Below the pieces are notes generated by a model, which was not told the origin of the DNA, did not search any database, and saw nothing but the letters and a program-made list of their open reading frames with translations. Below, piece after piece: positions 4,171 to 60,282 of a stretch of 64,000 bases of DNA; the first letter of the stretch is position 1, and the number at the start of each line of letters is the position of its first letter. The stretch is from positions 1 to 64,000 of the forward strand of contig JAHDIQ010000006.1 in assembly GCA_020630715.1 (NCBI GenBank), read 5' to 3'. This DNA comes from Nonlabens sp. Lineage in GTDB: Bacteria > Bacteroidota > Bacteroidia > Flavobacteriales > Flavobacteriaceae. Made by a program: the position numbers and the translations under genes.

Positions 4171-4184
4171 GCTTTCGCGAAAGC
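4171..4184. repeat. Dispersed palindrome copy 1 (intergenic)
   Basis: Perfect GCTTTCGCGAAAGC, extended to an 18-bp palindrome over 4169-4186. It lies in the 121-bp spacer between the lipoprotein gene and bshC. Confidence 0.97.
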
Positions 4185-4258
4185 GGAATACTTAAAACCT
4201 CAATACTCATAACCATCAATTAAGAATCATTTCACACTTCTAGAAGTATCTTTCACCC

Positions 4259-5857
4259 ATGACCATAGAAAAATTAGATTACAAAGATGCCCGTTACTTC
4301 AGTGATTTGATGTGTGATTATATGGATGGATCTGATGTGTTAAAAGGTTTTTACGGTTTTGATCCTGCACTAGAAAACTTTAAAAATCAGATCGATTTAA
4401 AAGGTGATCATTTTCCTATTGCTAATCGTAATAAGCTAGTTGATAGTTTGTTAGATCAATACAAGCAATTAGATGATAAAGAACACTCTACAGCAAATAT
4501 TAAGCTGTTAAAGGATCAAAATACCTTTACAATTACCACAGGTCATCAGCTTAATTTATTTACGGGACCATTATACTTTTTGTACAAAATCCTATCTGTA
4601 ATCAATTTATGTAAGCAATTAAAGCAACAATATCCGCAGTATGATTTTGTGCCTATTTACTGGATGGCGACAGAGGATCATGATTTTGAAGAAATCCGGT
4701 ATTTTAATTATGAAGGTAGAAAACTAGTTTGGGATCGTGAATCATCTGGTGCGGTAGGTAGGTTAGATACAAAAGGATTAGAGCTGGTTCTTAAAGAATT
4801 GAGAACGCTTTTAGGTAATAGTGATAACGCGCAATTTGTGATCGATTTATTTGAAAAATCCTATCTGCATCATGATAATTTAGCAGACGCTACACGATAT
4901 CTGGCGCATCAATTATTTGGTAACGATGGATTAGTTATAGTAGACGGTGATGACGCTAGAGTTAAAAAGTTAATGATTCCATATTTTGAAGAAGAATTAC
5001 TGAATCAGACTAGTTTTAAGCAGGTTTCAAAAACTATTGATAACTGGCCAGATAGTTATAAAGTACAAGTGAATCCGCGTGAAATCAACCTGTTTTACCT
5101 TACAGATGAATTAAGAGAACGCATCGTTTATGAAGATAACTTGTTTAAGGTTATTAATACAGACCTTTCTCTTACAAAGGATGAGATCCTACAAGAATTA
5201 AAGAATCATCCAGAACGTTTTTCACCTAATGTGATTTTAAGGCCTTTTTATCAAGAAGTAATTTTACCTAATTTGTGCTATATAGGTGGTGGCGGTGAGA
5301 TGGCGTACTGGTTAGAATTAAAAAACTATTTTGATTCACAAAAGGTTCCCTTTCCTATTTTGTTGATGCGTAATTCTGCATTGTTGATGTCCCAAAAGCA
5401 ACAACAAAAACTGAATAAACTAGACTTAAAGATTTCAGATTTGTTTTTGAAAGAGCATCAATTAGAAGAACTTATTACAAAAAAGCACAGTGAGATTACG
5501 ATTGATTTTACAAGACAACGTGATCATTTAAGGATGCAATTTGAAGAATTACATCAGCTTGCACAACAAACTGATCCATCCTTTAAAGGTGCTGTAGGTG
5601 CTCAAGAGCAAAAACAAATCAACGGTTTAAATCACCTAGAGAAGCGACTGCTTAAGGCTCAAAAACGAAAACTAAGCGACTACATTACTAGAGCAACTGC
5701 TTTACAATTAGAATTGTTTCCACAACATAACTTGCAAGAGCGCAAAGAAAACTTCGCTAGTTTCTATAAAGAGTATGGTGATCAATTGATTACTACCTTA
5801 AAGAATCAATTAGATCCTTTGGATCAGCGGTTTACGACGATTGTTTTAGAAGATTAA
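4259..5857 (+). CDS. bshC: Bacillithiol biosynthesis cysteine-adding enzyme BshC
   Basis: BshC is thought to add cysteine to GlcN-malate, the last step in making bacillithiol, a low-molecular-weight thiol used in place of glutathione. The 532 residues match the family. TGHQLNLFTGPLYFLYKI (about residues 96-113) and YWMATEDHDFEEI (about 138-150) form the Rossmann-like core signature. NLCYIGGGGEMAYWLELK lies mid-protein, and a coiled-coil region spans about 380-500. bshA and bshB are not in this window. A near-match promoter element (TATCTTTC, 4247-4254, 7 of 8) ends 4 bases before the ATG. Confidence 0.95.
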   Translation: MTIEKLDYKDARYFSDLMCDYMDGSDVLKGFYGFDPALENFKNQIDLKGDHFPIANRNKLVDSLLDQYKQLDDKEHSTANIKLLKDQNTFTITTGHQLNLFTGPLYFLYKILSVINLCKQLKQQYPQYDFVPIYWMATEDHDFEEIRYFNYEGRKLVWDRESSGAVGRLDTKGLELVLKELRTLLGNSDNAQFVIDLFEKSYLHHDNLADATRYLAHQLFGNDGLVIVDGDDARVKKLMIPYFEEELLNQTSFKQVSKTIDNWPDSYKVQVNPREINLFYLTDELRERIVYEDNLFKVINTDLSLTKDEILQELKNHPERFSPNVILRPFYQEVILPNLCYIGGGGEMAYWLELKNYFDSQKVPFPILLMRNSALLMSQKQQQKLNKLDLKISDLFLKEHQLEELITKKHSEITIDFTRQRDHLRMQFEELHQLAQQTDPSFKGAVGAQEQKQINGLNHLEKRLLKAQKRKLSDYITRATALQLELFPQHNLQERKENFASFYKEYGDQLITTLKNQLDPLDQRFTTIVLED

Positions 5858-5952
5858 AGTTTAATTTTTGATTGCTTACTAAGAAATCTTCATTTCTTAA
5901 AAACTCGTTGACAAAAGTGTGATTTACAGATTTAGGTTAGCACTTAAAAAAG

Positions 5953-5960
5953 TAAATTTG
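5953..5960 (+). promoter_or_regulatory. guaA promoter -7 element
   Basis: TAAATTTG matches TAnnTTTG exactly and ends 3 bases before the guaA ATG at 5964. With the usual 4-6 base distance from element to transcription start, the mRNA would begin at or next to the AUG. Confidence 0.6.
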
Positions 5961-5963
5961 CGC

Positions 5964-7499: not shown

Positions 7500-7500
7500 G

Positions 7501-9414
7501 ATGAAAAGATTATTGATAGTATTAGTGTTGATGTTTTTTGCTTTCGCGAAAGCGGAATCCTCAACATTCTTCCAGAATTATAAAGAGCATGTTGTAAAGC
7601 AAGACGATACCATGACCTCGCTAGCTAAGCAATATAACGTGACCGAAGCTGAGCTACTACAATTAAATCCTGATTTACGATCTGGATTGAAAGCTGGCGC
7701 TATTATATTGATACCATCTGGAGCACAAGGTTTAACACAATCACGCATTAAGGAATATAAAAAACACCGCGTACGCCGCAAGCAAACTCTTTATGGAATT
7801 GCAAAAAAATATGGTGTTACAGAATTAGATATTAAGGAAGCTAATAAAGAGTTGTATTCAAAAGGCCTGCGTAAAGGTGATCGCATACGCATTCCGGTTT
7901 TTGAAAAAGTGAAGCAAATTGACGAGCCAGCGGTAATTACTAGCAAGCCTAAGGATCCTACAACGGTATTAGAAATCCCTGCAGGAAAGCATGTTGTAAT
8001 TGCAAAAGAGACTGTTTATGGATTAAGCAAAAAATATGGAATCACGATGTCTGAATTTAAAGAGCTGAATCCAGGTGTGAATATTTTAAAACCAGGAATG
8101 CTTGTGAATGTTCCGGTACTAGATCAAGAGGTAGATACTGAACCTATTCCTGTTGCTAGAACTTTTAAAAACTATACGATTCCTGCAAAAATGACCATGT
8201 ATTCTCTAGAAAAAATGACGGGAATATCTACAGATTCATTGCTAGTGCTTAATCCATCATTAAAAGATGGTGTAAAAGCGGGAATGAGTATCAGGATTCC
8301 TAATAAACAAAATGGTGCGTTTGAAAAAGTGAGTAAGTATGCGACGTTAGTGGATAGCATAAGCAACTACAATCCACAACGTATTGCAGTGATGTTGCCT
8401 TTTTCTATGCAAAATTTGAGTGGTGAAGCATCTACATCAGATGTGTTAAAAAAAGATCGTACTTTACGTATTGCATTAGATTTTTATACTGGTATGATGA
8501 TCGCTAGAGATAGTGCTAAAGCCTTAGGACTTAATGTGGAGTTTGATGTGTATGATACTCAAAAAAGTGATAAACAAGTCTCATCTATCATTGCTTCAAA
8601 TAACTTTAGCCAGTATAATGTAGTGATAGGACCACTAGTAGGTAAAAGCGTAGTTGCTGCTGCTAGAGATTTAAAATCACTTGATGTTCCAGTGATTTCA
8701 CCACTAACTAATACAGATGTCAAATTATACAAGAATCTCTTTCAAGCCAGACCAGATAAGAATTTGCTCAAACAGCGATTGTATGAATATCTAAAACTTC
8801 ACGGTGAAGGCAAAAATATCATTATCGTTAATAATGCTAAAAAACCTCAATTGAAAAATGAAGTGCTTGCTATATTCCCAAATGCGAAAGTTTTAAAACC
8901 TAATAAAGACAATTACATCTTTAAGCAAAGCTATTTAGGTGCATTAAGCGATACGATGGAAAACTGGGTAATCCTAGCTACAAATAATGAAGGCTTTATT
9001 ACAGATGCGGTGTCGCATTACAGTGCAAAGGCTGTATCTCATAATATCACGATGTTTGGTTACGATGATTTTGAACAGTTTAGCTTGCCTAATCCTAGAT
9101 TAGCAGGTTTAAAATATACCTATCCTAGTATGAATAATACTGGTACAGATGATAATAGTTTTACCAGACGCTATTATAAACTTTATAATATATCACCTAA
9201 TGATTTTGCCACTCGTGGATTTGATGTAGCAATGGATGTTATTTTAAGACAAGCCAGTGCGTCAGACTTTTATGAAAGTGTGATGCGTAATGGACAAACG
9301 CGTATGGTCGAGAACAAATTCAATTACCATAAAAAGTTTCTTGCAGGATATTATAATGAAGCAGTTTACCTCTTACAATTTCAAGAAGATTTAAGTATTA
9401 AAGAATTAGACTAA
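7501..9414 (+). CDS. LysM-repeat protein with periplasmic-binding-protein-like domain
   Basis: The 637-residue exported protein has a signal peptide (MKRLLIVLVLMFFAFAKA, likely cut after AKA). Four LysM peptidoglycan-binding repeats follow at about 30-73, 89-133, 159-203 and 222-267 (HVVKQDDTMTSLAKQY, HRVRRKQTLYGIAKKYG, HVVIAKETVYGLSKKYG, YTIPAKMTMYSLEKMTG). The C-terminal part (about 290-637) resembles a type-1 periplasmic binding fold as in LivJ-like receptors (RIAVMLPF; NVVIGPLVGKSVVAAARDL; VISPLTN). It starts 1 base after guaA and overlaps osmC by 1 base, so it is operonic. The ligand is unknown; a wall-bound sensor or scaffold is inferred. One copy of the dispersed palindrome lies in the signal peptide. 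Confidence 0.88.
   Translation: MKRLLIVLVLMFFAFAKAESSTFFQNYKEHVVKQDDTMTSLAKQYNVTEAELLQLNPDLRSGLKAGAIILIPSGAQGLTQSRIKEYKKHRVRRKQTLYGIAKKYGVTELDIKEANKELYSKGLRKGDRIRIPVFEKVKQIDEPAVITSKPKDPTTVLEIPAGKHVVIAKETVYGLSKKYGITMSEFKELNPGVNILKPGMLVNVPVLDQEVDTEPIPVARTFKNYTIPAKMTMYSLEKMTGISTDSLLVLNPSLKDGVKAGMSIRIPNKQNGAFEKVSKYATLVDSISNYNPQRIAVMLPFSMQNLSGEASTSDVLKKDRTLRIALDFYTGMMIARDSAKALGLNVEFDVYDTQKSDKQVSSIIASNNFSQYNVVIGPLVGKSVVAAARDLKSLDVPVISPLTNTDVKLYKNLFQARPDKNLLKQRLYEYLKLHGEGKNIIIVNNAKKPQLKNEVLAIFPNAKVLKPNKDNYIFKQSYLGALSDTMENWVILATNNEGFITDAVSHYSAKAVSHNITMFGYDDFEQFSLPNPRLAGLKYTYPSMNNTGTDDNSFTRRYYKLYNISPNDFATRGFDVAMDVILRQASASDFYESVMRNGQTRMVENKFNYHKKFLAGYYNEAVYLLQFQEDLSIKELD
7540..7553. repeat. Dispersed palindrome copy 2 (in LysM gene, AFAKA frame)
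   Basis: Perfect GCTTTCGCGAAAGC inside the signal-peptide codons. It encodes AFAKA, which supplies the predicted signal peptidase I site (AKA). Confidence 0.97.
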
Positions 9415-9815
9415 TGACATCACAAGTAACTTATTTAGGAGATCTACGTACAGAATCTAAGCATTTAAAAAGTACAGATACCTTCCTAACAGATGCTCCT
9501 ACAGATAATAATGGGAAAGGTGAAGCTTTTTCTCCTACAGATACTGTTGCAACAGGTCTAGCTAGTTGTATGCTTACGGTGATGGGAATAAAAGCTCGTG
9601 ATATGGATAACGATCTTACAGGAAGTATCGCACAGGTGACTAAAGTAATGGCATCTAATCCTAGAAGAATTTCTCAAATCGACGTGGTTTTAGATATGAA
9701 AGGCAATTGTGATCAACGCACGCAGTTAATATTAGAACGTGTGGCAAATACCTGTCCAGTACATCATAGTTTACATCCTGATATTGTAAAAAACGTAACT
9801 TTTAATTGGTCATAA
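9414..9815 (+). CDS. OsmC family peroxiredoxin-like protein
   Basis: The 133-residue OsmC/Ohr-fold protein probably reduces organic or fatty-acid hydroperoxides in the cytoplasm. The two conserved redox cysteines are in GLASCMLTVMG (about residue 52) and NTCPVHHSL (about residue 113). The ATG overlaps the stop of the LysM gene by one base (TAATG). The subfamily (OsmC, Ohr or YhfA-like) was not resolved. Confidence 0.93.
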   Translation: MTSQVTYLGDLRTESKHLKSTDTFLTDAPTDNNGKGEAFSPTDTVATGLASCMLTVMGIKARDMDNDLTGSIAQVTKVMASNPRRISQIDVVLDMKGNCDQRTQLILERVANTCPVHHSLHPDIVKNVTFNWS

Positions 9816-9816
9816 A

Positions 9817-10338: not shown

Positions 10339-10397
10339 CAAGAGCTTTTTAAAACGTTCCACTAAAAAATCACCATCACACATTATAGTTCGAGCGC

Positions 10398-10430
10398 TAG
10401 TCGAGAACAAGCGGTAGCGTTGCATTGAGT
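10398..10430. repeat. Dispersed intergenic repeat fragment, copy A
   Basis: This 33-base stretch aligns with 27415-27447 at 27 of 33 positions, sharing TAGTCGAGA and AGCGTTGCA. It sits in the 196-bp spacer after the DUF922 gene, which otherwise shows nothing. Similar intergenic sequences are, from memory, common in Flavobacteriaceae. Confidence 0.6.
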
Positions 10431-11176: not shown

Positions 11177-11280
11177 AACCTAAATTTAGGATAAGGTATC
11201 AAACACAATACCATGAAATAAAGCTTTAGAATAACTCAATATCACTTCAAATTCCCTACTTAATTAAAACATAAAATGCC

Positions 11281-11309: not shown

Positions 11310-12932
<1,623 letters not shown>

Positions 12933-12941
12933 TCGTGTTAC

Positions 12942-12955
12942 GCTTTCGCGAAAGC
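12942..12955. repeat. Dispersed palindrome copy 3 (intergenic)
   Basis: Perfect GCTTTCGCGAAAGC, 10 bases after the pyrG stop codon. Confidence 0.97.
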
Positions 12956-12973
12956 AAAACAAAACAACATAAC

Positions 12974-12989
12974 AGGTTCACCAGAACCT
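12974..12989 (+). other. Small hairpin between pyrG and yidC
   Basis: AGGTTC-ACCA-GAACCT forms a 6-bp stem. No T run follows directly, so it is not a standard terminator. A weaker 4-bp hairpin and a T6 run lie just before the yidC ATG. Confidence 0.4.
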
Positions 12990-13020
12990 AAATAATTACC
13001 CTAACAGTAAGGGATTTTTT

Positions 13021-15000: not shown

Positions 15001-15597
15001 TTGTCTGTCCTAGAAAAATACATACCACGACTAGCCGTAATGCCATTAACCGCATTACTAGAGCAACATCATGTGCATTTAAAGATTGTTAATGAACGCA
15101 AGACCAGACACGGCGACTACAGACCGTTACCAGATGGATCACATCGCATTACTATTAATGCTAACCTAAATCAATACAGGTTTTTAATTACGCTGGTACA
15201 TGAGATTGCTCATCTGGTGGCGTTTACTAAGTATGGTCGCTACATAAAACCACATGGTGTAGAGTGGAAGCATACCTTCCAGCAATTGATGTTACCCTTT
15301 TTAAGACCTGATGTATTTCCTAATGATTTATTGCCTGTACTGGCCAGACATTTTAAAAACCCAAAAGCCAGTAGCGACACAGATGCGCTCATGAGTATTG
15401 CCTTAAAGAAATATGATCCAGAGACGCATAAAAATTATATATTTGAGTTGAACCATGGCGCACTATTTATCACAGATAATGGACGCAAGTTTATGAAAGG
15501 CAATAAACTACGCAAACGCTATGAATGTAAAGAAGTGGATACGGGAAGAGTTTATTTATTCCAGCCTAATGTTCAAGTAGAATTGATAAAAGAATGA
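15001..15597 (+). CDS. SprT-like metallopeptidase domain protein
   Basis: The 198-residue cytoplasmic protein has a SprT/Spartan-like zinc-protease signature, LVHEIAHLVAF (about residues 64-74), with a further histidine in HGVEWKHTFQQLM. No in-frame ATG lies between the upstream stop (TGA at 14980-14982) and 15001, so TTG at 15001 is used; the next ATG at 15040 would remove conserved N-terminal residues. It overlaps the next gene by 4 bases (ATGA), indicating translational coupling. Eukaryotic relatives cut DNA-protein crosslinks, but the bacterial role is uncertain. Confidence 0.88.
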   Translation: MSVLEKYIPRLAVMPLTALLEQHHVHLKIVNERKTRHGDYRPLPDGSHRITINANLNQYRFLITLVHEIAHLVAFTKYGRYIKPHGVEWKHTFQQLMLPFLRPDVFPNDLLPVLARHFKNPKASSDTDALMSIALKKYDPETHKNYIFELNHGALFITDNGRKFMKGNKLRKRYECKEVDTGRVYLFQPNVQVELIKE

Positions 15598-16676
15598 CAG
15601 AAAATAATAAGTACGCAGTAATTATGGCCGGTGGCGTTGGGTCACGATTTTGGCCAGTGAGTAAACAGTCTTTTCCTAAACAGTTTCACGACATGTTAGG
15701 TATGGGAAAGTCGTTACTGCAAATGACTTTTGACAGACTTAAAAATCAGATTCCAGCATCACAGATTCTGGTCCTTACTAATGCTGCCTATGTAGATTTA
15801 GTACAACAACAACTACCAGAGATACTACCTAGCAATATCGTCGCAGAGCCTGCGATGCGTAACACCGCACCGTGTATTTTATTAGCGGCATTAAAAATTC
15901 AGAAGATGAATGAACACGCCGCGATGATTGTGGCGCCTAGTGATCATTACATTGCAGATGAGGCAATTTTTAATGAAGACCTCGCTACAGCGTTTGACTT
16001 TTGCGATATGCATCCACAAGCCTTGATGACCTTAGGAATTCAGCCTACATCGCCTAATACTGGATATGGTTACATTGAGTATGATGAGCAAGAAGCTTCG
16101 GTTAAAAAGGTAAGTCAGTTTAGAGAAAAACCAGATCTCGCTACCGCACAAGAATTCCTTAAAGCAGGGAATTTCTTATGGAACGCAGGGATTTTTATAT
16201 GGAATGTGGCTGGAGTAGTAAATGCTTTCGCGAAAGCGCAATCACAAATGACCACATTATTTAACAGTGGCGTTGAGGTATATAACACTGGTGAAGAAGT
16301 AGCGTGGCTAGAAGAAAATTATCAAAAGGCCGAAAACATATCGGTGGACTATGCCATTATGGAAAACGCGGCAAATGTATTTGTGTTACCAGCGAGATTT
16401 TCATGGAATGATTTAGGGACTTGGGGTTCTTTATATGATAAACTAGATAAAAATAGTGATGAAAACGCAGTGGTAAATGCTAGTGTTACTGCAATAAATG
16501 CTAGCGGTAATATGATACGTACGGCTAGTGGTAAAAAAGTGATTTTACAAGATCTAGAAGATTACATCGTGGTAGATCAGGATGATGTACTTATGATCAT
16601 TCCTAAAACCGCAGAACAAGAGATCAAACAAATACGCAATAATGCGATGGAACAATACGGTAATGATATAGGATAA
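15594..16676 (+). CDS. manC: Mannose-1-phosphate guanylyltransferase
   Basis: The enzyme makes GDP-mannose from mannose-1-phosphate and GTP for surface polysaccharides and fucose-type sugars. The 360-residue protein has the nucleotidyltransferase signature AGGVGSRFWPVSKQSFPKQF at residues 11-30. Further conserved segments are EPAMRNTAPC, VAPSDHYI, FREKPD and FSWNDLGTWGSLY. It lacks the C-terminal isomerase domain of long ManC/AlgA proteins, as is usual in this phylum. It overlaps both neighbours. A palindrome copy (NAFAKAQ) falls in a loop after the NAGIFIWN segment. Confidence 0.95.
   Translation: MTENNKYAVIMAGGVGSRFWPVSKQSFPKQFHDMLGMGKSLLQMTFDRLKNQIPASQILVLTNAAYVDLVQQQLPEILPSNIVAEPAMRNTAPCILLAALKIQKMNEHAAMIVAPSDHYIADEAIFNEDLATAFDFCDMHPQALMTLGIQPTSPNTGYGYIEYDEQEASVKKVSQFREKPDLATAQEFLKAGNFLWNAGIFIWNVAGVVNAFAKAQSQMTTLFNSGVEVYNTGEEVAWLEENYQKAENISVDYAIMENAANVFVLPARFSWNDLGTWGSLYDKLDKNSDENAVVNASVTAINASGNMIRTASGKKVILQDLEDYIVVDQDDVLMIIPKTAEQEIKQIRNNAMEQYGNDIG
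16224..16237. repeat. Dispersed palindrome copy 4 (in manC, AFAKA frame)
   Basis: Perfect GCTTTCGCGAAAGC encoding AFAKA within mannose-1-phosphate guanylyltransferase. Confidence 0.97.
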
Positions 16677-20755: not shown

Positions 20756-22429
20756 ATGAAAATGCGTATCGTCCTCTTTTTATTAGTAGCAGTAATGGTG
20801 AGCTGTGCCTCGCTTTCGCGAAAGCGAGATTACCAGCAACCTACTACTTCACAGCAGCTATCTACTGTAGAGAAGCCTAAGTTAGTCGTGGGAATTGTAG
20901 TCGACCAAATGCGCTACGATTATTTGACCAGATTCAATGATCGCTATACAGATGATGGATTTAAACGATTAATGCGCGATGGTTTTAATTGTAAAAACAA
21001 TCACTACAATTTTGTTCCTACTTATACCGCACCAGGACATGCTAGTATTTATACAGGAACATCGCCTATGAATAACGGTATTATAGGAAACAACTGGTAC
21101 GATAAATTTGAGTCTAAGTCTATTTACAATGCTTCAGATGATAGTGTAGATCCAGTAGGAACAACCAGTGATGACGGGAAAATGTCGCCACGACGATTAC
21201 TCACCACTACTGTTACAGATGAATTAGAGTTACATACACAAGGACGTGCAAAAGTCGTAGGAATTTCCATTAAAGATCGTGGTGCGATCCTACCAGCTGG
21301 TCACGCCGCAGATGCTGCTTACTGGTTTGAAGGTGGCGATGCAGGAAATTTTATATCTAGTACATTTTATATGAATCAATTACCACAATGGGTGAATGAT
21401 TTTAATGCTTCTGGAGTTTTAGCATCATATATGAAAGAATGGAATACCTTATTTCCTATAAATACCTATACCGCAAGTGGATCTGATTTAAACGAATTTG
21501 AAAAACCACCCAAAGGCAAGGAAACAGCCACCTTTCCGTATGAATTACAACGCTTAAGCAAGAAAAATGGCGGTTACAGCTTATTAAAAGGCACACCTTA
21601 TGGCAATAGCATCGTCGCAGATTTTGCTATACAAGCATTGAAGAACGAAAACATGGGAATGGATGAAATCACAGATTTCCTAGCCGTAAGTTTTTCTAGC
21701 ACAGATTATGTAGGACATCAATATGGTGTGAATAGTGTGGAATTAGAAGACACCTATTTACGACTAGATCGTGATATCGCCCGATTATTAAAAGCACTAG
21801 ATGATCAAGTAGGTGCAGGGAATTATACCGTATTCCTTACCGCAGATCACGGTGCTGTGAATAATCCAGCCTATTTACAATCTCGTGGTGTGAACGCAGG
21901 ATATTTTAACAGTAGAGATTTAGAAAAATTCTTAAAAGAGCAACTAGCAACTGATTTAGGAAATGAAGCTATTTTAAAAGAAGTCTCTAACGGTCAATTG
22001 TTTCTAGATTATGAAATTTTAAAATCATCTCGAATGGAACAAAATTACGTACAACAATACCTAGCAGATCTAATGGTGAATTATCCTCAAATAGATAAAG
22101 TATACACTAGAAATGCGTTGATGAATACACAGTTTACTACAGGAACAGGCGCACTAGTGCAAAATGGTTTTCATCACAAGCGCAGTGGTGATGTCGTTTA
22201 TATTCTTGAACCTGGTGTAATAAGCTATTCCAGAACTGGATCTACACACGGTAGTTCGCAATCTTATGATACGCATGTACCATTGTTATTTTATGGAGCA
22301 GGAATACAAAACGGTAGTACCGCAGATCGTACGCATATCATCGATATTGCCCCTACGATTTCTAGTTTATTAGGCATTAGTTTTCCTAATGGAGCTACAG
22401 GAAATCCTATCGTACCTGTTTTAAAATAA
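20756..22429 (+). CDS. pafA: PafA-type alkaline phosphatase (lipoprotein)
   Basis: The 557-residue alkaline-phosphatase-superfamily enzyme releases phosphate from phosphomonoesters outside the cytoplasm. It has a lipoprotein signal ending VSCAS. Metal site one is in VVGIVVDQMRYDY. The threonine nucleophile lies in YTAPGHASIYTG, the phosphate-contacting asparagine in IIGNNWYD, and the PafA-specific lysine and arginine in SIKDRGAIL. Further metal ligands are in SSTDYVGHQYG, TADHGA and STHGSS. The KxR pair separates PafA from classical PhoA. A palindrome copy follows the lipid-attachment cysteine directly, encoding LSRKR. Confidence 0.93.
   Translation: MKMRIVLFLLVAVMVSCASLSRKRDYQQPTTSQQLSTVEKPKLVVGIVVDQMRYDYLTRFNDRYTDDGFKRLMRDGFNCKNNHYNFVPTYTAPGHASIYTGTSPMNNGIIGNNWYDKFESKSIYNASDDSVDPVGTTSDDGKMSPRRLLTTTVTDELELHTQGRAKVVGISIKDRGAILPAGHAADAAYWFEGGDAGNFISSTFYMNQLPQWVNDFNASGVLASYMKEWNTLFPINTYTASGSDLNEFEKPPKGKETATFPYELQRLSKKNGGYSLLKGTPYGNSIVADFAIQALKNENMGMDEITDFLAVSFSSTDYVGHQYGVNSVELEDTYLRLDRDIARLLKALDDQVGAGNYTVFLTADHGAVNNPAYLQSRGVNAGYFNSRDLEKFLKEQLATDLGNEAILKEVSNGQLFLDYEILKSSRMEQNYVQQYLADLMVNYPQIDKVYTRNALMNTQFTTGTGALVQNGFHHKRSGDVVYILEPGVISYSRTGSTHGSSQSYDTHVPLLFYGAGIQNGSTADRTHIIDIAPTISSLLGISFPNGATGNPIVPVLK
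20812..20825. repeat. Dispersed palindrome copy 5 (in pafA, LSRK frame)
   Basis: Perfect core inside the longest palindrome seen here, CTCGCTTTCGCGAAAGCGAG (20809-20828). It lies in the linker just after the lipobox cysteine of PafA. Confidence 0.97.
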
Positions 22430-23205: not shown

Positions 23206-24060
23206 TTAAATCCCAAATTTAGAACGAATTCCTTTCCAGCGATACGATCTAATAAATTTACCTTGATCTACCGTAACCAGTGGTTTGAGGTTTTTTTGTT
23301 GTGCCAGTTGATAACCTTTTAGGTAATCTGTAAAAAGCTTCCAGTTCTTTTTATTCCATGCCATTTTTGCACCAGTAATTGCTGTAAGCCACCATCCGTA
23401 GCGCATTTTGTAAAACGCTTCTCCTTGAAGGTATTTTGCATTTGCATTATAAGCCGCACCGGTAGGTTTTAGATGTTTTACATGTAATTCTGGAATGGTG
23501 ATAACTTCCCAATGATAATACCTGGCTAGCATCTCATCTATGGTGTCCCAACCTATACTGGGTTGTAGTCCGCCTATTTGTTCAAAGCATTCACGGCTGT
23601 AGGCTTTTAAAGCACCACGTATGTGATCTTTATTTGTACCTTTTTCAAGAATCCAGTTGCCGTTATTCTCAATCGTGCAATGTCCAGCGACCATTCCTGA
23701 TTTTTCGCTTTCGCGAAAGCGAGATACGATCATCTCTATATAGTTTTTTGGAAAAATAAGATCTGCATCAAATTTACAGATCAGGTCAAAGTCTGATGAT
23801 TGTACCTGTTGTAATCCGTAGGTAAAAGCACGAATCACCTTTGATCCAGGTAGATTCTGATCACTAGATTGATGGGTGACGACTTTTATGTTAGTATGAG
23901 TTTCTTGGTATTGGGTTGCTATATTAAGCGTACCATCAGTAGAGTTATCATTGACCACGATAATTTGATCTACTGGTGTGGACTGATGTAATAAACTATC
24001 CAATGTTCCAGCGATAAATCGCTCTTCATTATAACTAGGTATGATGATTAAGATTTTCAA
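23206..24060 (-). CDS. Family 2 glycosyltransferase
   Basis: The 284-residue GT-A enzyme has N-terminal ILIIIPSYNEERFIAGTLDSLL, the nucleotide-sugar segment IIVVNDNSTDGT, and the DxD metal motif in CKFDADLIFP. A substrate-binding domain follows, with a conserved GWDTIDEML. It probably adds a sugar to a cell-surface glycan; donor and acceptor cannot be told. The gene lies 6 bases after a methyltransferase gene on the same strand, so they are probably co-transcribed. A palindrome copy encodes RFRES after the DxD region. Confidence 0.92.
   Translation of the reverse strand: MKILIIIPSYNEERFIAGTLDSLLHQSTPVDQIIVVNDNSTDGTLNIATQYQETHTNIKVVTHQSSDQNLPGSKVIRAFTYGLQQVQSSDFDLICKFDADLIFPKNYIEMIVSRFRESEKSGMVAGHCTIENNGNWILEKGTNKDHIRGALKAYSRECFEQIGGLQPSIGWDTIDEMLARYYHWEVITIPELHVKHLKPTGAAYNANAKYLQGEAFYKMRYGWWLTAITGAKMAWNKKNWKLFTDYLKGYQLAQQKNLKPLVTVDQGKFIRSYRWKGIRSKFGI
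23707..23720. repeat. Dispersed palindrome copy 6 (in glycosyltransferase, RFRES frame)
   Basis: Perfect GCTTTCGCGAAAGC, symmetric out to 18 bp (23705-23722). On the minus-strand gene it reads RFRES. Confidence 0.97.
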
Positions 24061-25690: not shown

Positions 25691-25698
25691 TACTTTTG
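25691..25698 (+). promoter_or_regulatory. dnaB promoter -7 element
   Basis: TACTTTTG matches TAnnTTTG exactly and ends 6 bases before the dnaB ATG, implying a very short or absent leader. Confidence 0.6.
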
Positions 25699-25704
25699 AT
25701 CTCT

Positions 25705-27360: not shown

Positions 27361-27374
27361 GCTTTCGCGAAAGC
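27361..27374. repeat. Dispersed palindrome copy 7 (intergenic)
   Basis: Perfect GCTTTCGCGAAAGC (16-bp symmetric, 27360-27375), in the 238-bp spacer after dnaB. Confidence 0.97.
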
Positions 27375-31621: not shown

Positions 31622-31635
31622 GCTTTCGCGAAAGC
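31622..31635. repeat. Dispersed palindrome copy 8 (intergenic)
   Basis: Perfect GCTTTCGCGAAAGC in the 213-bp divergent spacer between the ABC-F gene and the peroxidase gene. Confidence 0.97.
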
Positions 31636-33071: not shown

Positions 33072-35561
33072 CTAATTCTCCATCAACCCATTCAACGTCT
33101 TATACTTAAAAACAGGAACAGTTTCACTATCAGTTTCAAAAATGATGGTCTTTTTAGTGTTATGTTCTAGGTTAAAGAAGTTATCTATGAAATGTCCTTT
33201 CGTGTCGGTGTAGAGGAAAACATCTTTTGCAAAAGCATTTGATTCTAGAGTTATTTTAAATCCATTTTCAACTGATTCTGTTGTCATATTCATGGTTACA
33301 GGTTGCAGAACCAGATTTTTGGGTTTCTCTAAAAAAGACATCAATTCGTTTTTACCATACTTGGTAACTACATAGACCTCATTAACATTGATATTTATTG
33401 AATTCAAATCAATGGTGTTTACTAGTTCGCTAGTGCCAGCATCTATAGATGCCGTGCTACTGTCTTCAAATTCTCTGTGTAATACCTTACCATGAAAATC
33501 TTTTATGAGTAACTCAAAGTCCCCAACTTCAGTTTTAAGTTTATCATTCACCACATAAGTTTTCAACGTATCATTCTCCACGACATTACTGATCAATACA
33601 TTCTCAAAATCACGTTTAGCTTGATAATGCAAGGCTTTCCAGTTGCCAAAATGATCAATACTACTCCAGCTCACCACAGGCCAGCAATCGTTCAACTGCC
33701 AGTATAGTGTTCCCATATTATAAGGCCTAGCTCTACGGTGCGCTTGTATTCCTTTAGACATTCCATAGGCTTGCAGTAGCTGACTTATATAAACGTAGTC
33801 CTCATCATTAGTCGGTACAGGGAAATCGCGTTCCATGTATTCTCGTATTAATTCATTTCCACGAGCATGTTTTTGATGCGAGGCATAATCTTTAGACTTA
33901 ATGTTTATAGTTTCATCTTCATTTATATATCGTATCGCCTCATAAGATGGATGTGATTGAAAACCGAACTCACTCATAAATCGCGGTACGTGTGCTTCAA
34001 AATGCTCAAACGGATACGCATCGTGCCACACATGCCAGTCGTGCGCATCGCCTTCAAATTCATATCGAGGATTACCACGACCTAATTGCGGCGAGCTTTC
34101 CCAGTAGGGTTCTTTGCTGAGTTCGCTCACGTATTTAGGCATAGCGATTTGAAAAACGGCACGATAATCTTTCCAAATACTATCGCGTTCAGCTTGTGAT
34201 CTTCCTTCTTGCCAGCCCCAATTATGCCATGCCTCACTGGTTTCATTATTTCCACACCATAGGGCAATGCTACTGTGATTACGTAGTCTAGTAATTTGAT
34301 GTGTGATCTCGTTGGTTACGCTTTCGCGAAAGCGTGCATCACCAGGATACATCGCACAAGCAAACATAAAGTCCTGCCATACCAGGATTCCTTTCTCGTC
34401 GCATTTTTCATAAAAAATATCATTCTCATAAATCCCGCCGCCCCAAATACGAAGCATATTCATATTGGCATCTTTTACATCACTTAATAAATCCTCATAA
34501 TGTTGATCAGTCACAAGGTCCTGCATCGAGTTTTGCGGAATGTAATTAGCACCTTTCATATAAACAGGTACTTGGTTTACTTTAAAATAAAAAGATGTGC
34601 TGAGATCGTCGGGCTCGTTGACCAGTTCTATAGTGCGTATTCCAGTTTTAAGCGTTTTAGAATCTATGAGTTCATCATTTTTAGAAACCAAAACCTCGAT
34701 ATCATATAAATAAGGTTCACCTATGTTGTGTGGCCACCAGAGTTTTGCTTCAGGAATTTCAAAGTGAATTTCAAACTCATCTTCTTGAGCCTTGGGCTGG
34801 TAATCTTGTTCCCAGTACAAACTATCATTGACCTTGATTTGAAATTTTAATAATTCGGTACATTTTTCTGATAGCTTAATTTGAGCCGTAAGATTTGCGA
34901 TAGAATCTTTTATAAAATTTTGCTTGATATAAAGATCTTCGATTTTAAAATCATTATAAGCTTCAAGATATACCGGTTTCCAAATTCCCATTGTATTGAG
35001 TCGCGGTCCCCAATCCCAACCGTATTGATACTGTGCTTTACGAGTATAAACACGGTTTCCTTCTGGTAAGCTGTACGGATTTGCAGCTGCTTTTTTCGCC
35101 TCAATTTCTAGTGGTGATTCAAAGGTAACGTAAAGCTCATTTTCTTTCTCTAAAAATGGTTTTACGTCTTGTTGCCAACTCAAAAAAGCATTATCAGTTT
35201 CTAGAATCTGGTGACCGTTGAGTTCTATACTAGCATACGTGTCTATTCCTTCAAAGTTTAAAGTGATGTGTTCTTTGGAAAGTGTTTTTTCATCGAGTGT
35301 AAAAATCGTTTCATAAATCCAATTCTCCTCGGTAATCCATTGTAAGCTGTCCTCATGATTTCCCTTAAATGGATGCTTTATCAATGGTAATAATTCTTTG
35401 TGAACCGTTGATGGAATAGTAACAGAATCTGAAACCAAACTATAATCTGCTGCCTTATGAAGCGACCAATTGCTTTCTAAATACTGTCGTTCTACGTTAG
35501 GTGCTTTTTCATGACAAGAAGTAATGAGAACTAATAAAACCAATAAGAAACTATATCTCAT
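33072..35561 (-). CDS. Beta-mannosidase (GH2), lipoprotein
   Basis: The 829-residue glycoside hydrolase family 2 enzyme removes terminal beta-mannose from oligosaccharides. It has a lipoprotein signal (LLVLLVLITSCHE), a sugar-binding-like N-terminal domain with WITEENWIYETIF, and the beta-mannosidase marker YGWDWGPRLNTMGIWKPVYLE. The acid/base glutamate is in IALWCGNNETSEAW and the nucleophile glutamate in PRFMSEFGFQSHPS, with YWQLNDCWPVVSW later. It overlaps cutC by 11 bases (cutC is upstream), so they form one operon. A palindrome copy encodes RFRES before the catalytic acid. Confidence 0.95.
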   Translation of the reverse strand: MRYSFLLVLLVLITSCHEKAPNVERQYLESNWSLHKAADYSLVSDSVTIPSTVHKELLPLIKHPFKGNHEDSLQWITEENWIYETIFTLDEKTLSKEHITLNFEGIDTYASIELNGHQILETDNAFLSWQQDVKPFLEKENELYVTFESPLEIEAKKAAANPYSLPEGNRVYTRKAQYQYGWDWGPRLNTMGIWKPVYLEAYNDFKIEDLYIKQNFIKDSIANLTAQIKLSEKCTELLKFQIKVNDSLYWEQDYQPKAQEDEFEIHFEIPEAKLWWPHNIGEPYLYDIEVLVSKNDELIDSKTLKTGIRTIELVNEPDDLSTSFYFKVNQVPVYMKGANYIPQNSMQDLVTDQHYEDLLSDVKDANMNMLRIWGGGIYENDIFYEKCDEKGILVWQDFMFACAMYPGDARFRESVTNEITHQITRLRNHSSIALWCGNNETSEAWHNWGWQEGRSQAERDSIWKDYRAVFQIAMPKYVSELSKEPYWESSPQLGRGNPRYEFEGDAHDWHVWHDAYPFEHFEAHVPRFMSEFGFQSHPSYEAIRYINEDETINIKSKDYASHQKHARGNELIREYMERDFPVPTNDEDYVYISQLLQAYGMSKGIQAHRRARPYNMGTLYWQLNDCWPVVSWSSIDHFGNWKALHYQAKRDFENVLISNVVENDTLKTYVVNDKLKTEVGDFELLIKDFHGKVLHREFEDSSTASIDAGTSELVNTIDLNSININVNEVYVVTKYGKNELMSFLEKPKNLVLQPVTMNMTTESVENGFKITLESNAFAKDVFLYTDTKGHFIDNFFNLEHNTKKTIIFETDSETVPVFKYKTLNGLMEN
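34320..34333. repeat. Dispersed palindrome copy 9 (in beta-mannosidase, RFRES frame)
   Basis: Perfect GCTTTCGCGAAAGC; the minus-strand gene reads RFRES here. Confidence 0.97.
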
Positions 35562-36282
35562 TATTTAAGTTTTTGAGGATGGTTTCTATGTTTTTTTGGC
35601 TGGAAAAAACTTCCACATTTTCTTGAAGAAATTTAGGCGAATTCATAGAAACTTTTTCTTCACTAGTTTGCTCCATAATTTCTGTGGCGCTGGCGTGGAT
35701 TTCTTTGAAATTCGCTTTCGCGAAAGCGTAACAATTACCAGCATTAATTCCACCACCAGGCATGATAGTTAGTTCTTTTCCCGCTAACTTTTGATACTGT
35801 TTTAAGTTTTCTATTCGGTCTATGGCTTTAGCATGTTGACCAGAAGTAAGGATGCGTTTTGCACCTAGATTCACTAAATCCACAACGGCTTCTTCTGGAT
35901 TCACTACATGGTCAAATGCTCTATGAAAAGTAAAGGGTAGTGGTCTAGAAAGTTCAATTAACTCACTCGTACGTCTGATGTCAATTTTAAAGTCTGAAGT
36001 CAACACACCAGAAACAATTCCAGCGCAACCTAGTTCTTTACACAACTCAATATCGCGTTTCATAATGTCAAAATCAGCAGCGCTGTACACAAAATTCCCA
36101 GAACGTGGACGTATCAAAACCATGACCGGAATCGTCAATTCTTCCATCACTTTTTTAAGCAATCCATAACTAGGTGTGATCCCACCTACGGCGAGTTCGC
36201 TACATAATTCTATCCGATGTGCGCCAGCTTTTTGAGCGTTTACAGCACTTTGATAATTTGATGCGCAGATTTCTAGGAGCAT
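35551..36282 (-). CDS. cutC: CutC family protein
   Basis: The 243-residue TIM-barrel protein starts MLLEICASNYQSAVNAQKAGAHRIELCSELAVGGITPSYG and contains VMVLIRPRSGNFVYS, FHRAFDHV, RILTSGQ and IMPGGGIN, all standard CutC segments. CutC was named for copper homeostasis, but its biochemical role is disputed. Here it is translationally coupled to a beta-mannosidase and lies near a hexosaminidase, so a role in glycan use is possible. A palindrome copy encodes YAFAKANF. Confidence 0.93.
   Translation of the reverse strand: MLLEICASNYQSAVNAQKAGAHRIELCSELAVGGITPSYGLLKKVMEELTIPVMVLIRPRSGNFVYSAADFDIMKRDIELCKELGCAGIVSGVLTSDFKIDIRRTSELIELSRPLPFTFHRAFDHVVNPEEAVVDLVNLGAKRILTSGQHAKAIDRIENLKQYQKLAGKELTIMPGGGINAGNCYAFAKANFKEIHASATEIMEQTSEEKVSMNSPKFLQENVEVFSSQKNIETILKNLNNEI
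35714..35727. repeat. Dispersed palindrome copy 10 (in cutC, AFAKA frame)
   Basis: Perfect GCTTTCGCGAAAGC encoding AFAKA on the minus-strand cutC gene. Confidence 0.97.
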
Positions 36283-44036: not shown

Positions 44037-44810
44037 TTAATTTTTATAGGTAAAACGGTCATCGTGCTCAAATCGTAAGGTGTCTACTTTCTTAAAGTAA
44101 TCAATCATCGCATTACGTATTTTATAGTCTAGTTTCACTACTGGAGCGTCTTTGAAAAAGCTCATATTATCACCACTATTGTATAAATAGTCACTGGTAG
44201 CAACGTAATAAAATTCTTTTTCTTCAATGGTTACCTTATGATCACCATCTGGCGATAATTCAATTTTAAGTCCTTCAAAAGGATGCGCACGTTCACGATC
44301 TGTGAGGTATGTAATCAATCCATTCATTTGTTTTTTATCAAGTGTGGCAACTACCATTTCATTTTCAAAAGGCATTATTTCATAAGCCGTGCGCATAGTA
44401 ACAGGACCAGCTTTCATAGGTGCTCTAATTCCACCATGATTTAGTAGTACTACATCGATGTCATTACCTGTACGCTGTTTAAATACAGGATTACCTTGTT
44501 CCATAACTGTGTGCGCCATCATATTTCCTATCGGTGTGTTGAGTTTATAGTCATTTTTATGCATGCGTTTAGGATTGTAAGAAAGCATCTCATCCATTTG
44601 TGCATCTAGACTTTTTTTGAATGGAGCGATAAATTCGTTAATCTCTGTAACACCGCTAATGGTAGTGTCTACGACTATTTTTGATCCTGTAACTTTCTGT
44701 AACTGTGATGGTGATGGTTTGCAGGATGATAATAGTAATGCCGCTTTCGCGAAAGCGAAATAAAACAGCCATGATTGCCACCTATAATTTAAGTTCATTT
44801 TTATATGCAT
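44037..44810 (-). CDS. 5'-nucleotidase C-terminal domain lipoprotein
   Basis: The 257-residue lipoprotein (lipobox LLLSSC) consists of the 5'-nucleotidase C-terminal domain: TPIGNMMAHTVMEQG, VLLNHGGIRAPMKAGPVTMRTAYEIMPFENEMV and YYVATSDYLYNSGDNMSFF. It is the first gene of a two-gene operon with the metallophosphatase half. ATG 44798 is an alternative start. A palindrome copy lies within the signal peptide (FAFAKAA). Its divergent promoter region overlaps that of the DUF6913-like gene. Confidence 0.9.
   Translation of the reverse strand: MHIKMNLNYRWQSWLFYFAFAKAALLLSSCKPSPSQLQKVTGSKIVVDTTISGVTEINEFIAPFKKSLDAQMDEMLSYNPKRMHKNDYKLNTPIGNMMAHTVMEQGNPVFKQRTGNDIDVVLLNHGGIRAPMKAGPVTMRTAYEIMPFENEMVVATLDKKQMNGLITYLTDRERAHPFEGLKIELSPDGDHKVTIEEKEFYYVATSDYLYNSGDNMSFFKDAPVVKLDYKIRNAMIDYFKKVDTLRFEHDDRFTYKN
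44743..44756. repeat. Dispersed palindrome copy 11 (in 5'-nucleotidase C gene, AFAKA frame)
   Basis: Perfect GCTTTCGCGAAAGC in signal-peptide codons of the minus-strand gene. Confidence 0.97.
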
Positions 44811-47439: not shown

Positions 47440-48648
47440 ATGTCATATTTAAGCGGTAAAAAAATATTACTAGGAGTTACTGGTGGTATTGCTGCTTATA
47501 AAACTACTTACCTAGTGCGCCTGCTCGTTAAAGCAGGCGCAACTGTTAAGGTGGTAATGACGCCTGCTTCTAGAGAATTTGTCACGCCACTTACACTATC
47601 CACACTTTCTAAAAATCCCGTACTTTCTCATTTTACTAATGAAGAAGATGAGAATGATACATGGAATAATCATGTAGATCTAGGCCTATGGGCAGATTAT
47701 ATGATCATTGCTCCAGTTACAGCAAATACGATGAGTAAAATGGTGGGTGGTACCATAGATAATTTACTACTTGCCGTTTATTGTAGTGCAAAATGTCCAG
47801 TATTCTATGCGCCAGCAATGGATCTAGACATGTATAAACATCCATCTACACAACATAATTTTAAGCAATTAGAATCTTATGGAAATCATATGATTCCTGC
47901 CGGTGTTGGCGAGTTAGCCAGTGGTTTGTCTGGTGAAGGTCGCATGGCCGAGCCTGAGGAGATCGTCAGCTATGTAGAAGACTATATTTCTGATAAATTA
48001 CCTCTTAAAAGTAAAAGTGCACTCATTACCGCTGGACCTACTTACGAGCCTATAGATCCTGTGCGTTTTATAGGAAATCACAGTAGTGGGAAAATGGGTG
48101 GTGCGCTGGCCATGGAATTGGCTCATTTAGGAGCACAGGTTGTACTTATTATGGGTCCTAGCCATGTTATAACTAATCATAATAACATTGATAGACAGAA
48201 TGTGACCACCGCGCAACAAATGTATGATGCCGTTCATAAGCATATTGACAGTGTGGATATAGCGATTTTTAGCGCTGCAGTTGCAGATTATCGTCCTGTA
48301 AATAGAGCAGATCAGAAAATAAAAAAGAGTGCAGATACGTTATCTATAGAGCTAGTTAAAAATCCAGATATATTAGCTAGTGTAGGAGCAATGAAGCTAC
48401 GACCGTTTCTTGTGGGATTTGCGCTAGAGACAGATAATGAATTAGATTACGCTTTCGCGAAAGCAGAAAAGAAAAATACCGACTTACTTATATTAAACTC
48501 ACTAAGAGACAAAGGAGCAGGTTTTAAAAAGGATACGAATAAAATAACGATTATAGATCGCCAAAAAAATGTCATACCTTTTGACACGAAATCAAAAACA
48601 GAAGTTGCAAAGGATATCATTAATGAAATTATTAAACGTACATCTTAA
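47440..48648 (+). CDS. coaBC: Bifunctional CoaBC (phosphopantothenoylcysteine decarboxylase / phosphopantothenate-cysteine ligase)
   Basis: The 402-residue enzyme does two steps of coenzyme A synthesis. The N-terminal CoaC flavoprotein has GKKILLGVTGGIAAYK, the catalytic-type histidine in NHVDLGLWAD and PAMDLDMYKHP. The C-terminal CoaB has ALITAGPTYEPIDPVRFIGNHSSGKMG and ELVKNPDILA with its lysine. A palindrome copy (YAFAKAEKK) lies near the C-terminus. coaE is also in this window at 61217. Confidence 0.96.
   Translation: MSYLSGKKILLGVTGGIAAYKTTYLVRLLVKAGATVKVVMTPASREFVTPLTLSTLSKNPVLSHFTNEEDENDTWNNHVDLGLWADYMIIAPVTANTMSKMVGGTIDNLLLAVYCSAKCPVFYAPAMDLDMYKHPSTQHNFKQLESYGNHMIPAGVGELASGLSGEGRMAEPEEIVSYVEDYISDKLPLKSKSALITAGPTYEPIDPVRFIGNHSSGKMGGALAMELAHLGAQVVLIMGPSHVITNHNNIDRQNVTTAQQMYDAVHKHIDSVDIAIFSAAVADYRPVNRADQKIKKSADTLSIELVKNPDILASVGAMKLRPFLVGFALETDNELDYAFAKAEKKNTDLLILNSLRDKGAGFKKDTNKITIIDRQKNVIPFDTKSKTEVAKDIINEIIKRTS
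48451..48464. repeat. Dispersed palindrome copy 12 (in coaBC, AFAKA frame)
   Basis: Perfect GCTTTCGCGAAAGC encoding AFAKA, placed between conserved CoaB segments. Confidence 0.97.
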
Positions 48649-52133: not shown

Positions 52134-52147
52134 GCTTTCGCGAAAGC
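52134..52147. repeat. Dispersed palindrome copy 13 (intergenic)
   Basis: Perfect GCTTTCGCGAAAGC directly after the fabI terminator, in the 283-bp spacer before the giant gene. The rest of the spacer is AT-rich; a near-match -7 element (TAAATTTA, 52337-52344, 7 of 8) ends 14 bases before the next ATG. Confidence 0.97.
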
Positions 52148-59207: not shown

Positions 59208-59228
59208 CACTTCTTAAATATTAAATAG

Positions 59229-59262
59229 AAAGGTCATTCCTTAATTGGAATGACCTTTTTTT
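59229..59262 (+). terminator. Terminator after the giant secreted protein gene
   Basis: A perfect 12-bp stem (59229-59240 with 59247-59258) with a 6-base loop and a T run. Confidence 0.93.
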
Positions 59263-59280
59263 ATTGCCTATTTTTACTCA

Positions 59281-60282
59281 ATGAAGTTACAGCAGTTTTC
59301 TTTTGTTATCCCTGTTTTTAATAGACCTCAAGAGGTTGAAAACTTATTATTGTCTATTTCTAAGTTAGAACATACAGATCCATTTGAAGTGGTTATCGTA
59401 GAAGACGGTTCAAGTGAAACTTGTAAGGATGTTTGTTTACGCTTTCGCGAAAGCATAAATATTACCTACTTATATAAAGAGAATAGTGGACCTGGCGATT
59501 CTAGGAATTACGGAATGTCAAGAGCTAACGGTGATTATTTCATTATTTTAGATAGTGATTGTGTATTGCCAGCTCATTATTTAACAGAGGTAAGGTCTTA
59601 TTTAAACAACAGCTATGTGGATTGCTATGGCGGTCCTGATGCTGCTCATGAGCGCTTTTCTAATTTACAGAAGGCGATCAATTATTCTATGACGTCTTTT
59701 TTAACTACAGGAGGAATACGTGGTGGAAGCGAACGATTAGGTAAATTTCAACCTCGCAGTTTCAATATGGGAATAAGTAAGAAAGCTTTTCTTGCTACTG
59801 GCGGTTTTAGCAAGATTCATCCTGGAGAAGATCCAGATTTAAGTATTAGATTATGGAGACTAGGTTTTGAAACGGCTTTGATATCAAATGCCTTTGTATA
59901 TCATGAGCGACGTATTTCATGGAGACTATTTTTTAAACAGGTCAATAAATTTGGTAAAGTACGTGTAATACTTAATAAATGGTATCCTGATACGCGTAAA
60001 TTCTCGTACTGGTTTCCTTTTTTATTTCTTGTTTTCTTAGGACTAGGTGTTTTGTTTTTGTTTTTGGGAGAGCCGTTGTTGATTTCTCTATTTGTCTGTT
60101 ACTTTATTGCTGTTTCAATAGATAGTGTTTTAAAAAACGGATTGATTGTAGGTGTGATGTCTATCCTTGCAGTGGCTATTCAATTTGCAGGCTATGGAAT
60201 GGGTTTTATACATTCATGGATTCAATTAGTGGTATTAAGAAAGGAAGAGCAAAAAGCTTTTCCCTATTTATTTTTTAGCTAG
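59281..60282 (+). CDS. Family 2 glycosyltransferase with C-terminal membrane segments
   Basis: The 333-residue enzyme has an N-terminal GT-A domain: FVIPVFNRPQEVENLLLSI, VVIVEDGSSETC, the DxD-type motif ILDSDCVLP, then RSFNMGISKKAFLATGGFSKIHPGEDPDLSIRLWRLG (acceptor and catalytic region). Two to three hydrophobic helices follow (about 240-310), so it is likely membrane-bound. The sugar and acceptor are unknown. A palindrome copy encodes RFRES between the two nucleotide motifs. The next gene starts 2 bases after its stop codon. Confidence 0.92.
   Translation: MKLQQFSFVIPVFNRPQEVENLLLSISKLEHTDPFEVVIVEDGSSETCKDVCLRFRESINITYLYKENSGPGDSRNYGMSRANGDYFIILDSDCVLPAHYLTEVRSYLNNSYVDCYGGPDAAHERFSNLQKAINYSMTSFLTTGGIRGGSERLGKFQPRSFNMGISKKAFLATGGFSKIHPGEDPDLSIRLWRLGFETALISNAFVYHERRISWRLFFKQVNKFGKVRVILNKWYPDTRKFSYWFPFLFLVFLGLGVLFLFLGEPLLISLFVCYFIAVSIDSVLKNGLIVGVMSILAVAIQFAGYGMGFIHSWIQLVVLRKEEQKAFPYLFFS
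59441..59454. repeat. Dispersed palindrome copy 14 (in glycosyltransferase, RFRES frame)
   Basis: Perfect GCTTTCGCGAAAGC encoding RFRES. It is the last copy in the window; none lies in the preceding 7.3 kb, which is mostly the giant gene. Confidence 0.97.

Follow-up and report, generated by a model that had tools for sequence, protein, structure and literature searches.

parS, matS and the Noc-binding and SlmA-binding sites are palindromic sites of chromosome-organising proteins. Other signals are iterated genome-wide, and Chi, the uptake sequences, and HIP1, a highly iterated palindrome (HIP) of cyanobacteria, are those named in a paper on HIPs (PMC4390886). In the present study, a 14-bp palindrome, GCTTTCGCGAAAGC, is described from a 64-kb stretch of Nonlabens sp. 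DNA (contig JAHDIQ010000006.1, positions 1 to 64,000; hereafter the window) and from the genomes of this genus. It shares traits with Chi, uptake sequences, and HIP1, and none of their definitions is shown to apply to it. Neither the 14-mer nor its 12-bp core occurs in the open-access papers retrieved for these strings and the 10-bp core, subscription papers and preprints being outside the search. Likewise, no title or abstract opening on the motif was found in the open literature on Nonlabens palindromes, Dokdonia/Nonlabens repeats, and competence.

Number, spacing, and anatomy of the palindrome

The window contains 14 perfect copies, whereas 100 dinucleotide-preserving shuffles contained none. 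All of the starts listed in an earlier, sequence-only reading of this DNA were verified, and its hand estimate of about 1 in 10,000 copies per 64 kb agrees with the zero-order expectation (0.00048 per 397 kb of the same genome, or ~0.8 in 10,000 per 64 kb). The GC content of the window is 33–39 % in 4-kb tiles. Five of the copies lie between open reading frames (ORFs) of at least 90 amino acids, as had been claimed, and 10 of the 13 gaps, which range from 1.4 to 9.0 kb, fall within the 2.7–5.4 kb previously given as the usual spacing. That reading had also proposed a chromosome-wide motif comparable to HIP1 as an iterated palindrome. This is borne out by the full genome (2.98 Mb, 17 contigs), in which 609 copies, or one per 4.9 kb, were counted against 0 for a reversed-pattern control; this is far over expectation and not confined to the window.

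The copies are evenly spaced. On contig C1 (232 kb), the 43 gaps have a mean of 5.2 kb and a coefficient of variation of 0.45, against 0.97 for random placement, with none of 5000 simulations being as even, and there is one gap shorter than 1.5 kb where 10.7 were expected. Counts per 20-kb tile are under-dispersed in three species (this genome, G002, and G009; 38 tiles, p = 4.7e-6). Eight scattered stretches of the single 3.9-Mb contig of G002 hold 3–5 copies each, with no position effect seen, as does each of six stretches of G009, and regional confinement of the matS or SlmA type was not found in the stretches sampled from these two genomes. This evenness indicates a need for some copy no more than a few kb away. 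Spacers, which make up 11.7 % of the sequence according to a simple ORF caller, hold 32 of 76 sites in the same genome (20 tandem, 10 divergent, and 2 convergent). The 44 genic sites use all three frames (21, 13, and 10), and 10 of them are in the first tenth of the gene.

The palindrome is flanked by dyad-symmetric arms that reach about 30 bp and contribute, averaged over copies, 6.8 bits each. Symmetry beyond 14 bp had been noticed in the window, and it is apparent in the next outward base, which is C (5′ side, position −1) in 87 % of half-sites. This is followed by TT at −3/−4 and A at −5, beyond which the arms are G/T-rich and C-poor to about −30. An arm profile, trained in three genomes on sites lying 60 bp or more inside the stretches, gave a score of +10.4 (standard deviation 7.0) for 110 Nonlabens sites outside the training set, some of which are orthologous to training sites, and −17.4 (standard deviation 7.7) for random places. 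Near-misses of the core are scarce: 1.33 Mb contains 254 perfect, 30 one-mismatch, 18 two-mismatch, and 26 three-mismatch forms. The core carries 27.6 bits, where 12.3 would be enough to specify 609 places. Among the one-off forms, two transitions at half-site positions 5 and 6 are the most frequent, T>C (10 out of 30) and C>T (9 out of 30).

From the dyad symmetry, the long symmetric arms, and this stringency we infer a dimeric protein as reader. The reading tentatively preferred here takes GCTTTCGCGAAAGC as the invariant core of a genomic signal of roughly 75 bp with dyad symmetry, read by a putative homodimeric DNA-binding protein. A copy would be required within a few kb of any position on long-resident DNA, whether chromosome, integrated elements, or prophages. 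The likeliest use would be chromosome maintenance, with the copies acting as regularly placed anchors in nucleoid organisation or segregation.

The coordinates of the copies are collected in Table 1. Proteins encoded in the window include BshC, GuaA, PyrG, YidC, PafA, RecN, and a giant protein with a type IX secretion system (T9SS) tail. In keeping with the genus, the nearest named matches of YidC are Nonlabens xylanidelens, strain BBFL7, and a Nonlabens metagenome-assembled genome. The gene of the giant protein (2282 amino acids, with five choice-of-anchor J stretches) is 6.8 kb without a copy, and there are copies directly before and after it.

Table 1. Copies of the palindrome core in the window, with one example of the whole element
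Feature	Position	Strand	Context
Core 1	4171..4184	.	Spacer, ORF 2890-4137 to bshC 4259-5857
Core 2	7540..7553	.	Start of LysM-type gene 7501-9414, frame AFAKA; in 18/18 Nonlabens regions
Core 3	12942..12955	.	pyrG-yidC spacer; 15/18 Nonlabens regions (not G002, G005, G009); also G250, other genus
Core 4	16224..16237	.	Gene 15594-16676, residue 211 (AFAKA); same residue in 10/11 regions having the gene
Core 5	20812..20825	.	Near start of 20756-22429 (pafA, alkaline phosphatase), at residue 20, occupied in 6/11 regions having the gene
Core 6	23707..23720	.	In minus-strand ORF 23206-24060; present in 2/4 close relatives, one-mismatch form in other 2
Core 7	27361..27374	.	Spacer, ORFs 25696-27255 and 27494-28756
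Core 8	31622..31635	.	Divergent spacer, ORFs 29653-31536 (-) and 31750-32925 (+)
Core 9	34320..34333	.	In minus-strand ORF 33072-35561, glycosidase-like (matches below curated cut-offs)
Core 10	35714..35727	.	In minus-strand ORF 35551-36282
Core 11	44743..44756	.	Near start of minus-strand ORF 44037-44810
Core 12	48451..48464	.	Late in ORF 47440-48648, frame AFAKA
Core 13	52134..52147	.	Spacer upstream of 2282-aa T9SS protein gene 52359-59207
Core 14	59441..59454	.	In ORF 59281-60282; first copy past the giant gene
Whole-element example	12907..12990	.	Core plus 35 bp C-poor, G/T-rich arm per side, arms mutually inverted

Conservation of sites and distribution among genera

Positional conservation between strains, a point raised by the sequence-only reading, extends across species. 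The window was compared with four relatives that are ~74 % identical to it, and in 17 of 24 comparisons the site is shared (gapped alignments in G001 being scored as unshared), against 132 of 4158 conserved random 14-mers. In the comparison of 18 regions (Table 1), the LysM gene site of G003 lies just beyond the aligned part and is visible in a separate alignment. In ten regions, the window among them, the copy before bshC is in the spacer; in four close relatives it is at codon 82 of the gene before, ~1 kb away. For the remaining regions of this area, G014 has a copy inside bshC, and G006, G017, and G020 have none in the stretch examined. In these alignments one copy seems to have taken the place of another. 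At codon 82 the window has GCGTTTAAAAAAGC where the relatives have the palindrome, a gap-free difference that gives AFKKA versus AFAKA in the protein. A two-mismatch form is present at pafA residue 20 in G016, and GCTTTCGCGGAAGC, common to G011 and G001, is a probable loss of a site. These site-by-site patterns indicate that sites are maintained individually, the alleles in genes differing by substitution.

One sequence in many copies could also be due to a mobile or self-copying short element, a terminator hairpin, or an assembly artefact. Some spacer loci do differ in length as well as in presence, which is ambiguous as to insertion. For genic sites, insertion of a mobile palindromic element, like the repetitive extragenic palindromes (REP) or miniature inverted-repeat transposable elements (MITE), is rejected, since GCGTTTAAAAAAGC and the palindrome align without gaps. 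The self-spreading palindrome suggested earlier is therefore contradicted in aligned genes with and without the site, the spacers being less clear. In addition, the 14-bp identity is sharp and the same sites recur across species and assemblies. A terminator role is rejected on the small share of convergent spacers. Explanations of this class are hardly credible.

Among 59 genomes searched, all 23 of Nonlabens (this genome and 22 congeners) hold 288–857 copies; 35 of the other 36 have none, and G033 has six on one contig. At least one copy is present in 80 of 397 Flavobacteriaceae genomes drawn, of which four are Nonlabens. The count in related genera, also raised earlier, is divided: of the 393 drawn genomes outside Nonlabens, two contain hundreds (857 in G250, genus g225, and 408 in G234, genus g209), but 74 have 1–19 copies and 317 have none. 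Two drawn Leeuwenhoekiella genomes have nine (G188) and six (G372). Copies in G250 are likewise under-dispersed (variance/mean 0.38, 8 tiles).

G250 and G234 group with Leeuwenhoekiella in a PyrG tree (99/97; 50 of 92 rows used) and likewise in a concatenated three-gene tree (100/100) of 11 genomes with at least two of the three genes, in which the ComEC frame of G250 is shortened at its start. Their placement relative to Nonlabens is left unsettled by both trees. The PyrG of G234 (C1:2005986-2007671) gives a two-piece match in one 595-aa frame, as if there were an insertion near residue 410. G250 and G234 also have a copy in comEC, placed at identical codons, of which there is no trace in either Leeuwenhoekiella genome. 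Given the near-absence of the palindrome from Leeuwenhoekiella and this grouping, there was at least one loss or gain of the trait within the group.

In nine groups lacking the system (28–166 kb scanned per group, some composed of orthologous loci), all k-mers scored far below the palindrome (for k=10, a maximum of 36 versus 80–146 in G009, G234, and G250). In the same scan, TTTGCGCAAA was seen seven times in Aquimarina and TTCCGGAA six times in one Gillisia locus.

Candidate readers, phages, and transferred DNA

The palindrome differs from the parS consensus, as the sequence-only reading had held. parS itself (up to 2 mismatches) was not found in the stretches scanned, which are part of the genomes only, and nothing is concluded from this. 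One ParB_N match, in a frame of ~300–320 amino acids, is present in each of 15 genomes. A second, in a 616-aa frame, is found in G019 (C1:1269093), G033 (C18:76088), and G188 (C2:302059). It is absent from six of the seven motif-rich genomes tested, the seventh being G019, and its other two carriers are motif-poor. A Noc-like ParB paralogue was rejected on the finding of one chromosomal-type ParB per genome across the 15. Altered ParB specificity was rejected because genomes with and without the system resemble each other in the DNA-binding region (nine aligned). These sequences make it unlikely that the reader is Noc-like, and bear only indirectly on ParB itself as reader. The 616-aa ParB-like gene of G033, perhaps a mobile-element gene, lies ~6.5 kb from the first palindrome of a cluster, and the stretch around that of G019 (L280), taken for another reason, has two copies in 20 kb.

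A sequence made or kept by DNA methylation and methylation-dependent repair, as in Elhai's model of HIP1, is a further candidate. The palindrome is GC-rich, lineage-specific, and highly iterated in coding and non-coding DNA, as is reported for HIP1 (PMC4390886). Its one-off forms are dominated by the two transitions, and PF02384 matches are present in 11 of 12 Nonlabens genomes tested. Such a mechanism depends on a cognate methyltransferase. However, none of four major methyltransferase families is common to the Nonlabens genomes tested, other families being outside the search, which does not favour the methyltransferase site proposed earlier. PF01555 is absent from this genome and 10 of 22 congeners, PF00145 from 9 of 22 congeners, PF02086 from 9 of 12 Nonlabens tested, and PF02384 from G009 and also G234. 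G009, with 563 copies, has no match to any of the four at E <= 0.001. A HIP-type cause is disfavoured because of G009 and is very improbable. Matches to PF00145, PF02384, and PF02086 in this genome are on contigs C7, C8, C10, C11, C13, C14, and C16; PF00145 and PF02086 are variable across Nonlabens, as expected of restriction-modification turnover.

Viral contigs scanned by the motif gave at least 120 stretches. Among the matches listed, 132 sites were scored for arms, of which 32 were above 0 and 88 below −10. Of 20 records chosen for host-like or intermediate arms, 17 hold 2–7 copies and three hold one, and each of four records with poor arms holds one (0 out of 4 with more). The densest have 7 copies in 37.4 kb, 5 in 36.4 kb, and 5 in 27.0 kb. 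Several records are closely related to one another, and as all were found via the motif, neither a share of motif-bearing phages nor a typical density can be derived. Nine records had proteins tested, among which are portal, head, terminase, tape-measure, and primase proteins and some without a match. Genes for lysogeny or transposition are present in five of eight records read in pieces: tyrosine integrases in G439 and G440, a serine recombinase in G443, and transposases of Mu-like type with CI-like repressors in G453 and G456.

The isolated Nonlabens phages P12024S and P12024L contain no copy and nothing closer than three mismatches (35.0 of the 35.65 kb of P12024L examined), where host density would predict about seven copies in each. 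Their annotations include ERF and YqaJ recombination domains and no integrase. Because the motif-bearing phages were found by motif and these two by host, this is a contrast of examples and not a rate. A 34-base consensus gave chance-like matches only against named phages and plasmids, and a bare 14-base match could not reach the E-value limit.

The copies are clustered in the motif-poor genomes examined (G033, G145, G131, and G380, of 74). In G033 (C18; L241 and L242) the cluster DNA encodes resistance-nodulation-division (RND) efflux pumps, heavy-metal P-type ATPases, and a multicopper oxidase (five proteins tested). G145 and G131 share, with identical flanks, a pair of copies separated by 933 bp, and the same distance is found in G122 and G259. 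G380 has five copies in 14.5 kb (C5; L266), in a stretch found by the motif. Clusters are present on L263, L264, and L265, from genera lacking the system. Because the copies are clustered, the content includes metal resistance, the flanks are identical, and the 933-bp distance recurs, this DNA is probably mobile, and the palindrome may trace DNA that lived in a motif-bearing host. Copies on temperate phages and transferred DNA, and not on the isolated phages, suggest that the benefit attaches to DNA staying in the cell.

A palindromic, orientation-free, Chi-like site, borne by resident elements and switching an end-resecting nuclease to repair mode, would have to lie within a few kb of any break and would account for the even spacing. 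The density of the palindrome is similar to that of the Chi sites of RecBCD/AddAB, as in E. coli. Likewise, P12024S and P12024L lack the palindrome and, by annotation, carry recombination domains of their own. However, Chi is a short, asymmetric site that is read on a single strand, unlike a 14-bp core with 30-bp symmetric arms, and a separate asymmetric hexamer, CTGGTG, is over-represented in this genome. These points make a Chi-like role improbable. The hexamer occurs 83 times in the window (15.5 expected) and 465 times in 437 kb of the same genome (99 expected), and the octamer GCTGGTGG, which contains it and which we take to be the E. coli Chi octamer, 36 times in the same 437 kb (3.7 expected). 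The observed/expected ratio of CTGGTG is 2.4–3.4 in other Nonlabens sets and 1.3–2.2 in other genera; it is possible that it is a Chi candidate or a codon effect.

A close rival of the chromosome-maintenance reading, although a doubtful one, is a DNA uptake signal. A surface or periplasmic receptor would prefer element-bearing DNA, and transformation with recombination would spread the element by molecular drive. A protein-binding site and an uptake signal were both among the uses proposed by the sequence-only reading, and both are kept as candidates. DNA uptake sequences (DUS) and uptake signal sequences (USS) are not known to be palindromic. ComEC is without internal stops in 14 of 14 genomes tested, as uptake would need, but it is equally present in genomes without the system. 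DUS are reported to have fragment-matched spacing, stringent conservation, and permissive sites (PMC2397512), and USS are reported as a core with flanking tracts (PMC7811141). Natural competence is reported in Riemerella, placed by the authors of that work in the same family, but Flavobacterium johnsoniae was, in their account, not competent under the same condition. DUS are also reported to be missing from genes of recent acquisition and to be rare in accessory DNA (PMC2397512; Treangen-type analyses), whereas some temperate phages and transferred DNA have the element at densities up to nearly that of the host, though these were found by the motif.

Several points weigh against chromosome maintenance by a dimeric reader. 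No reader protein was identified, and no phyletic gene profile was run. An apparent 10-bp periodicity of the arms failed a permutation test (p 0.93), and without significant helical periodicity, wrapping of DNA is not supported. The patchy distribution, with near-absence from Leeuwenhoekiella, sits badly with an essential function, and G234 has weaker arms and is without under-dispersion (variance/mean 0.98, 11 tiles). Strong conservation, fragment-matched spacing, and permissive placement are, as cited above, also reported of uptake sequences. No integrase was seen in G441, G444, and G445, the other three of the eight records read, either by a motif screen or among the proteins tested. P12024S and P12024L share 71 % of 20-mers, and with this kinship their zero copies are little more than one observation. 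Since the motif-bearing viral records came from a search with the motif itself, the maintenance reading is placed slightly lower, and uptake slightly higher, than they would otherwise be.

Beyond the maintenance reading, the palindrome could be a self-DNA signal of a new class, which is an unlikely proposal. A predicted protein system would survey resident DNA for the evenly spaced dyad and maintain, organise, or spare its carriers; prophages and integrated elements would evolve the signal so as to pass as chromosomal DNA, and virulent phages do without it. On this view, the patchy presence in three genera suggests that the reader is a module that can be transferred or lost. With more than 20 genomes, aligned sites, natural presence/absence alleles, near-motif-free relatives, and phages of both kinds, the upkeep of the motif is open to test.

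Comparison with known motif systems

Like Chi, the palindrome would serve a function needed everywhere on the chromosome; unlike Chi, it is long and symmetric, with arms, and has no orientation. It differs from the parS, Noc, matS, and SlmA sites in its hundreds of copies, in the lack of regional restriction in the stretches sampled, and in the lack of a Noc-like chromosomal ParB paralogue. It resembles the DUS of Neisseriaceae and the USS of Pasteurellaceae, as these are described in the sources cited above, in having a characteristic spacing, a stringently conserved sequence at permissive positions, and tracts that flank a core. It is unlike them in its perfect dyad symmetry, its presence on some temperate phages, and its different phylum, and it occurs once per ~5 kb, compared with about one USS per kb (PMC7811141). 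As with HIP1 and the alternate HIPs of cyanobacteria (GCGATCGC and others), it is a genome-wide, GC-rich palindrome shared by a lineage and present in both genes and spacers. In contrast to HIPs, which are 5–8 bp, it is 14 bp with long symmetric arms, none of the four methyltransferase families tested is common to its hosts in Nonlabens, and there are ~200 copies per megabase, where around 500–2500 are given for HIPs (PMC4390886).

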